Part shown: in pieces, positions 35,538 through 38,515 of the stretch
Position numbering within the stretch: the stretch's first letter is position 1
Layout of the letters: each line of letters begins with the position of its first letter
NCBI RefSeq assembly: GCF_001263415.1
Contig: NZ_LGTE01000002.1
Location: forward strand, 124,001-188,000
DNA length: 64,000 nucleotides
From: Thermincola ferriacetica
Lineage (GTDB): Bacteria > Bacillota > Thermincolia > Thermincolales > Thermincolaceae
Direction of reading: 5' to 3'
The notes under the pieces: generated by a model
What the model was told of the DNA's origin: nothing
The model's input: the letters and a program-made list of their open reading frames with translations, nothing else
Database searches by the model: none
Program-made: the position numbers and the translations under genes

Positions 35538-35566
35538 TTGAAAAGCCTCGGGTTTTTCTATATAAT
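35538..35566 (+). promoter_or_regulatory. Sigma-A promoter of the selenoprotein gene
   Basis: TTGAAA (35538-35543), 17-nt spacer, TATAAT (35561-35566). It shows that transcription starts upstream of the ATG at 35620 and not within the gene, supporting the longer reading frame through TGA. Confidence 0.8.
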
Positions 35567-35619
35567 TAGATAAAAGTATACCATGTCAGGGTATTTTTGA
35601 AAAAAGAAGGTGTAAACAT

Positions 35620-36408
35620 ATGGACGAATACAAGAATAACATGAAAGCGATATCAAGTTGTTGAGGCTCTGCCGATGATGCAGGTCAGCATCAACAGAAA
35701 CCCAATACGGAAAACTGTCAGATTTGCGGAAGCAGGCTAGAATATTTTGCTCAAGGGAAGGAATTAAAATGTTTCCGTTGTAGAAAAAAAGAATTTGCCA
35801 ATATAAGTTGTCCAAACGAACATTATATATGCGATGAATGCCACGGGAAGGACGTTTTTAAGACAATAAGGGACTATTTATTAACAACAAAATCGAATAA
35901 TCCTTTGCATATTGCTGAAACTCTAATGGGTTACACCGATAAGGTCCCGATGCTGGGCTGCGAAAATGCCTGGATTGCTGCGGGGTCTTTAATGGTATCT
36001 ATTAAGAATGAAGGATCCATAAAAATAGCTGATAGCCAAATTGACGAGGCGCTGAATCGGACCCGCAGACAGGCCATTGGCGGGTATTGTGGTCTGACGG
36101 GAGTCTGCGGGATTGCGCCTGCTATCGGAGCCTGCTTTAGTATAATTCTCGGGGCTGCATGTCCAAAAGATCGTGAAACTTCAATTACTATGAAAGTTGT
36201 GGGGAAAATAGTAAATGTTATTGCTGATGAAACCGGTCCGTGCTGTTGCAAAAATTTCGTTCGAACTGCCCTTGCTGAAGCTATTAAACTTACAGATCAA
36301 TATCTAAACGTACAACTTCCAATTTCCGATGAAATACCCCTTTGTACTCACGTAGAGAGACATCCGCATGGGTGCAGAAAAGATAAATGCCGTTATTATA
36401 CTGTTTAG
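35620..36408 (+). CDS. DUF5714 family selenoprotein (in-frame TGA = selenocysteine at residue 15)
   Basis: Reading through one TGA (35662-35664), the frame runs from ATG 35620 (GAAGG ribosome site at 35606-35610) to TAG at 36408: 262 residues. The N terminus is MDEYKNNMKAISS-Cys-Sec-Gly-Ser-Ala. Then come four Cys pairs (CQIC, CFRC, CPNEHYIC, CDEC, about 34-75) that look like two zinc sites, and a DUF5714 domain from about residue 90 with LGCENAWIAAGSL, GYCGLTGVCGIAPAIGACFS, GPCCCKNFVRTALAEA and LCTHVERHPHGCRKDKC. A bacterial SECIS hairpin lies directly after the TGA. A start at the internal ATG 35926 or nearby would cut into the DUF5714 domain and lose all the zinc pairs. The Cys-Sec dyad suggests a redox or metal/arsenic-binding centre; the actual reaction is unknown. 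Insertion requires selA-selD elsewhere in the genome. Confidence 0.88.
35662..35693 (+). promoter_or_regulatory. Selenocysteine codon and bacterial SECIS element
   Basis: TGA (35662-35664) is followed after 17 nt by loop AGGTCA (35682-35687), closed by TGATGC (35676-35681) and GCATCA (35688-35693). In the SelB-binding SECIS of Escherichia coli fdhF the loop AGGUCU also begins 17 nt after UGA on a UUGC/GCA stem. The match in spacing and loop is what SelB recognises. Confidence 0.9.
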
Positions 36409-38058: not shown

Positions 38059-38119
38059 CCATTTAGCAGGATAATAGCGCTGACCTGTCGAAGCAATATA
38101 TAAACTGGAGGTGAAACAA

Positions 38120-38515
38120 TTGACCGTACTGGAAAAGGCAAAGGAATTGGCTCAGGCAATTGCTGAATGTGATGAACTGAAAGAAGTCCGTGCTGCTGAA
38201 ACCAGAATGACCCTTGACCCTGATGCCCAGGATATTCTAAGGGAATTTCAGATCAAACAAAGGGAATTTTACAATATACAGGTGAACGGCGGAGAACTTA
38301 CAGAAGAGCAGAAGCGCGATGTGGAACGAATCGAAAACAGGATGTCACAAAATGAATATATCCGCAAATTTGTGGGCGCTCAGGAAAGGTTTGAGGCCTT
38401 GTTAAATTCAGTAAATATGATTATTGCTCAGGCTATTTCAGGTAATTCAGGTTGTGGTTGTGGGGATAATGGCGCAGCAGATTGCTGCGATTCAGGCTGC
38501 AGCGGTTGCAATTAA
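38120..38515 (+). CDS. YlbF/YmcA (Ric) family protein with Cys-rich tail
   Basis: 131 residues. The helical YlbF core (AKELAQAIAECDELKEVRAAETRMTLDPDAQDILREFQIKQREFYN, then RIENRMSQNEYIRKFVGAQERFEALLNSVNMIIAQAIS) is followed by a Gly-rich tail with six Cys in GCGC, CC, GC and GC arrangement. In Bacillus the RicA-RicF-RicT complex carries Fe-S clusters and tunes RNase Y, biofilm, competence and sporulation. The tail offers a possible cluster or metal site. The TTG at 38120 is spaced 6 nt behind GGAGGTG. Its position directly after miaB, an Fe-S enzyme, is notable since YmcA is linked to tRNA methylthiolation in Bacillus. Confidence 0.85.
   Translation: MTVLEKAKELAQAIAECDELKEVRAAETRMTLDPDAQDILREFQIKQREFYNIQVNGGELTEEQKRDVERIENRMSQNEYIRKFVGAQERFEALLNSVNMIIAQAISGNSGCGCGDNGAADCCDSGCSGCN

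Follow-up and report, generated by a model that had tools for sequence, protein, structure and literature searches.

The closest described relatives of the protein considered here are the MbdU proteins, which are modelled in NCBIfam as NF045648 with a curated cut-off of 600 bits. The name stands for 'metal-binding double selenoprotein', a family with the motif CU (Cys-Sec) and two selenocysteine (Sec) residues that is credited in a 2026 review (PMC13188914) to Haft & Tolstoy 2025 (mSystems 10:e01417-24). MbdU is composed of an N-terminal CU, a Cys-rich zinc-ribbon-like segment, and a DUF5714 domain (profile positions 2-267), followed by a C-terminal DUF2284 half that bears the second Sec (about 268-468). 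Two other selenoprotein models, NF041536 (ArsM/DUF2284) and NF041537 (ArsM/AhpD), have the same kinds of Sec-bearing C-terminal domains as some relatives of the present protein, but their N-terminal part is a methyltransferase and not DUF5714. No mention of DUF5714 by name was found in the literature searched.

Within the window (the whole 64-kb stretch of DNA that was analysed), a single 262-codon frame on the forward strand at 35620-36408 has the first three of the MbdU elements: an N-terminal CU, the Cys-rich segment, and DUF5714. The NCBIfam scan of its product returned one match, NF045648, with 395.7 bits over positions 2-267 of the 468 in the profile. Because this score is below the 600-bit cut-off that applies to the full profile, the protein would not be named by the model. 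In contrast to MbdU, it has neither a C-terminal DUF2284 half nor a second Sec, since the frame stops at TAG 36406-36408, and it likewise has neither of the C-terminal domains of the two ArsM selenoproteins. Judged by these comparisons, it is best described as a stand-alone, single-Sec member of the MbdU/DUF5714 group, i.e., a close relative of MbdU but not MbdU as defined.

This kind of selenoprotein is thus already known and named, contrary to the initial annotation, which did not regard DUF5714 as an established selenoprotein family. As far as could be checked, what is new is that the stand-alone single-Sec form predominates and lies below the model cut-off, together with a SECIS element supported by covariation, a three-Sec fusion to AhpD, and a link to arsenic, although some of these points may already have been noted by Haft & Tolstoy 2025. 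Stand-alone copies of the MbdU N-terminal module that fall under the cut-off are probably being missed or mis-called in annotation.

Reading of the in-frame UGA

The frame begins at ATG 35620 and, exactly as first described, contains one in-frame TGA, at codon 15 (35662-35664) in the context Ser-Ser-Cys-TGA-Gly-Ser, and no other stop before the terminal TAG. It is preceded by a likely ribosome-binding site, GAAGGTG (35607-35613, forward strand), and by the sigma-70-type promoter-like site TTGAAA-17-TATAAT that had also been pointed out; the latter was located at 35538-35566 on the forward strand and agrees with 11 of 12 consensus positions, as a consensus match only. Read through the TGA, the product would comprise the conserved CU motif Cys14-Sec15 (TGT TGA, 35659-35664), a Cys-rich zinc-ribbon-like segment (residues 33-75, 35716-35844), and the helical DUF5714 domain (PF18978; residues 83-260, 35866-36399), all on the forward strand. 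The last of these matches the whole PF18978 profile with 174 bits, above the gathering cut-off of 26.2 bits. In the AlphaFold2 model (mean pLDDT 82), the helical domain comes after a zinc-ribbon-like segment of beta strands, and residues 1-29, which include Cys14-Sec15, are disordered, with a pLDDT below 50.

Every sequence in an alignment of homologues (A2) has Cys14, and conservation at position 15 is 90% or higher. The Cys-rich segment, which is inferred to bind metal, contains the CxxC pairs C33/C36, C51/C54, and C71/C74 as well as C64, H68, and H75, all of them invariant. Of the four Cys pairs that had been proposed between the TGA and DUF5714, these three are present, and a fourth exists only if Cys14-Sec15 is itself counted. 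Within the DUF5714 domain the motifs MLGC, GLTGxCG, and CCK are invariant and HPHGCR is nearly so. The mechanical list of open reading frames holds only a 167-aa frame from TTG 35905, which loses the entire Cys-rich N terminus; the expectation that standard annotation would truncate the gene was therefore sound.

Downstream of the UGA lies a candidate bacterial SECIS hairpin, TGATGC-AGGTCA-GCATCA (35676-35693, forward strand). As initially reported, exactly 17 nt (35665-35681) separate the TGA from the loop AGGTCA (35682-35687), which has G in its first positions and is closed by a 6-bp stem (TGATGC/GCATCA). The apical loop of the Escherichia coli fdhF SECIS is AGGTCT, at the same position after the UGA, although fdhF encodes formate dehydrogenase, a protein unrelated to the one studied here. 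Among the 1966 TGA trinucleotides of the 64-kb window (both strands, any frame), only two have, at the spacing of a bacterial SECIS, a downstream hairpin with a GGTC loop and a stem of at least 6 bp. However, when any GG or GT loop was allowed, 40 of the 1966 had one, so the hairpin by itself is suggestive and not proof, and its conservation is decisive. An Rfam scan of the window at the gathering threshold gave no matches.

Comparative analyses of the hairpin provide this evidence. Its loop is mostly GGTC among homologues (39/54), and its stem occurs in compensatory variants, namely GATGC/GCATC, GATAC/GTATC, AGTGC/GCACT, GGCGT/ACGCC, GGTGT/ACACC, and GGTAT/ATACC. In a covariation test on 53 distinct sequences, two-sided changes were seen at all six stem pairs, each in some sequence. 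The number of two-sided-change cells was 56, compared to a mean of 15.7 after shuffling, and none of 500 shuffles reached as high a value; paired cells made up 90.9% at the hairpin, compared to 18-53% in slid controls. The hairpin is also coding sequence, and part of its conservation is due to the protein. Paired changes that alter the protein, for instance Asp-Ala-Gly-Gln-His to Asp-Thr-Gly-Arg-Tyr, are nevertheless consistent with selection on RNA pairing.

The TGA itself is conserved as well. A genome scan recovered 55 homologues with 45 to 73% identity, 52 of which had an alignable N terminus and were used for counting; these derive from Bacillota, plus one metagenome-assembled genome (MAG) labelled Pseudomonadota. 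TGA is found at this codon in 51 of the 52 and is preceded by Cys in 50, while one homologue (L066) has Trp-Sec in place of Cys-Sec. Purifying selection acts on the codons between the UGA and DUF5714, where dN is 0.18-0.31 and synonymous sites are saturated or nearly so. Two loci depart from the pattern. A Pelotomaculum MAG (L059:5977-6744) has Ser (TCA) at the Sec codon with the hairpin still intact, and so has either lost Sec recently or contains an error. In another MAG (L031:310-400), the stretch with the CU codons and SECIS is missing and the frame changes into the zinc ribbon, possibly through faulty assembly.

The initial annotation had made its proposal dependent on the presence of selA, selB, selC, and selD, and all four were found in the genome: selA at C18:6682, just upstream of selD; selB at C2:14245; and the tRNA-Sec gene selC, which was also called by ARAGORN. 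The selD gene (C18:8136-9062) carries an in-frame TGA of its own, and SelD is therefore probably a selenoprotein as well. Across the phylum, selA was present in 257 of 399 sampled genomes but in every one of the 15 with a CU-type DUF5714 gene, and several genomes with only the non-Sec DUF5714 type are without it.

Considering the conserved TGA, the covarying hairpin, the purifying selection, and the sel genes together, the hidden selenoprotein first proposed here is well supported, and SelB almost certainly brings Sec-tRNA to this UGA such that the 262-aa protein is made. Reassignment of the code, a true stop, and a sequencing error were each rejected on conservation, the last because the Cys-Sec pair is kept across dozens of independent genomes. 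That the gene encodes no selenoprotein, with the TGA a stop or an error and the product either starting downstream (as in the 167-aa frame) or belonging to a pseudogene, is extremely improbable in view of the 51 conserved TGA codons, their covarying SECIS, and the selection acting beyond the TGA, despite the deviant loci L059 and L031.

Fused relatives and the non-Sec branch

Most of the copies found share the short single-Sec form of the window protein, and a Sec-type copy is also present in Acetoanaerobium noterae. Fusion to DUF2284 was seen at three loci (L039, L041, and L070). One of these, L039 from Desulfosporosinus acididurans, is a full-length MbdU with the second Sec in a terminal DUF2284 and scores 789.3 bits to NF045648 and 254.6 bits to NF041536. 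A search for a second MbdU copy in the window genome gave none, only partial matches of the DUF2284 type. On contig C33 of that genome, a methyltransferase/DUF2284 fusion without Sec (L077:1498-3033) lies between CobT-like and B12-type radical SAM genes.

A further arrangement joins DUF5714 to an AhpD-type domain with a CEPU motif and a C-terminal CKTU, giving three Sec in total. It occurs at four loci (L017:5962-7104, L023:1561-2691, L040:5974-7107, and L057:6001-7131), and each of its TGA codons precedes a plausible hairpin. The two of these proteins that were scanned, L017 and L057, reached the cut-off of none of the NCBIfam models that they matched (L057, for instance, has 119 bits to NF041537). 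Among the models checked, the three-Sec AhpD fusion is thus apparently covered by none, and the outcome of the analysis includes this apparently unmodelled form in addition to a well-supported set of covarying SECIS elements. At one locus (L020), a CKTU tail is found without AhpD.

Other members of DUF5714 have no Sec. They share the helical domain and the zinc-ribbon-like N terminus of the window protein, but they begin at the zinc ribbon without CU, and they carry MHGPEHH and GGPRCCK where MLGCE[NH] and GPCCCK stand in the CU branch. In a DUF5714 tree the CU type forms one side of a branch with support of 100/100, in a grouping that counts L116 and L121 as non-Sec from a reading by eye, against their automatic labels. 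The initial annotation had suggested looking for Cys-Cys at the CU position in homologues. Close homologues carry Sec there, and Cys-Cys was encountered only as a weak match in a few distant DUF5714 proteins: three non-Sec members (L127, L128, and L131) start with MECC or MGCC just ahead of the zinc ribbon, perhaps as a counterpart of Cys-Sec, though the likeness is weak. A recurrent gene set at non-Sec loci (L124, L127, L128, L129, L130, and L131, and in part L125) consists of an ArsM-like methyltransferase, a radical SAM/SPASM protein, a thioredoxin/thioredoxin-reductase fusion, and DUF5714; its radical SAM/SPASM protein resembles peptide maturases.

Gene neighbourhoods and possible function

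Taken as a whole, the window gene is best explained as encoding a stand-alone, single-Sec selenoprotein of the MbdU/DUF5714 group that probably aids anaerobic bacteria in dealing with arsenic or a similar metal(loid). As for what that role is, the chances appear evenly balanced that it is the binding or relay of a soft metalloid, in which case arsenic would be the most likely one. Clustering of neighbourhoods across all Sec-type loci revealed no single dominant partner, and none of the marker genes was nearby at about 45 of the 56; the arsenic reading therefore draws on a minority of loci, on the fusions, and on the non-Sec branch. The window copy is itself without an adjoining arsenic gene, being flanked by yetF on one side and by miaB-mutS on the other, with the miaB-like gene beginning about 220 bp beyond the TAG. 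Structural comparison also does not speak for arsenic: no Foldseek match of the model in the PDB had an E value under 0.001, and those from a profile search of PDB sequences were all weak and at the level of chance.

Several neighbourhoods do point to arsenic. The closest named relative of the window protein (L017, 71-73% identical), one of the three-Sec fusions, sits in an island of genes for ArsR, a thioredoxin-like CxxC protein, ArsP permease, DUF2703, ArsR, ACR3, and a phosphoesterase, between the ArsR/Trx/ArsP and the ArsR/ACR3/phosphoesterase groups. The window genome has a matching arsenic island on a different contig, C16 (ArsM, 339.5 bits; ACR3, 470.4 bits and 89% identical to that of L017), without this DUF5714 gene. 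ACR3 also adjoins three other Sec-type loci (L029, L047, and L060). In the non-Sec branch, an ArsM-like methyltransferase is close to 7 of 27 loci, mostly with radical SAM/SPASM and Trx/TrxR fusion genes. Additionally, a DUF5714 gene adjoins annotated arsM and ArsR genes on a Paraclostridium plasmid, and ArsR and low-molecular-weight phosphatase-family genes on a Eubacterium eligens plasmid. The L017 island, the ACR3 neighbours, the ArsM links of the non-Sec branch, and the DUF2284 and AhpD partners held in common with ArsM selenoproteins are the grounds on which arsenic is favoured.

In the mechanism envisaged, Cys14-Sec15 would be carried on a flexible N-terminal arm beside the zinc-ribbon-like Cys-rich segment and the Cys-rich helical domain. 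The selenothiol pair could catch a soft metalloid, with trivalent arsenic or a methylated arsenical as the likeliest candidates, and either hold it or relay it between a methyltransferase, of the ArsM or the corrinoid type, and a partner for efflux or redox chemistry. The fused DUF2284 and AhpD domains, which ArsM selenoproteins carry too, would be optional partners. A bolder version is tentative and may well prove wrong: the Cys-Sec/DUF5714 module might be a new kind of As(III)/methylarsenical carrier or a demethylase or methyl-relay unit, used alone or fused to the DUF2284 and AhpD selenodomains that also partner ArsM, with the three-Sec DUF5714-AhpD-CKTU protein as its most elaborate form. 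The analysis connects DUF5714, a family of unknown function, in a testable manner with the chemistry of arsenic and of methyl groups in anaerobes.

A different role would be in corrinoid-dependent methyl transfer or in cobalamin or cobalt metabolism, where the module would take up or hand on cobalt or a methyl group. UroD-type methyltransferases and DUF4445-type reductive activators are encoded next to five loci of the Sec type (L038, L058, L061, L062, and L063), and one of these loci (L058) also has CbiMNQO-like cobalt transport genes and a cobalamin adenosyltransferase-like gene; in the window genome, DUF2284 proteins are encoded beside a CobT-like gene, a gene for a B12-type radical SAM protein, and one for a UroD-type methyltransferase. 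These five loci count against arsenic as well. However, they amount to only about one tenth of the Sec-type total, the window copy has its nearest relative (L017) within an ars island, and the non-Sec branch is linked to ArsM-like rather than corrinoid genes, so a corrinoid role is considered unlikely.

A general thiol-redox function, in which thioredoxin would reduce a Cys-Sec selenenylsulfide for the purposes of redox repair or signalling and the substrate would be neither a metal nor a metalloid, is slightly less likely again. The CU pair is capable of redox chemistry, a thioredoxin/thioredoxin-reductase fusion is encoded beside non-Sec DUF5714, and the AhpD-fused relatives have the CxxC-like CEPU motif. 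Yet an adjacent Cys-Sec with many invariant Cys residues suits the binding of a metal or metalloid as well as or better than redox chemistry of the CxxC type, and such neighbours as do recur are ArsR, ACR3, and ArsM-like genes and metal P-type ATPases.

Elsewhere in the window, positions 38111-38515 encode a YlbF/YmcA-like protein that has a tail rich in Cys (SGCGCGDNGAADCCDSGCSGCN) and matches the model for 'halo-CC-star protein HcsL' with 77 bits, below its cut-off.
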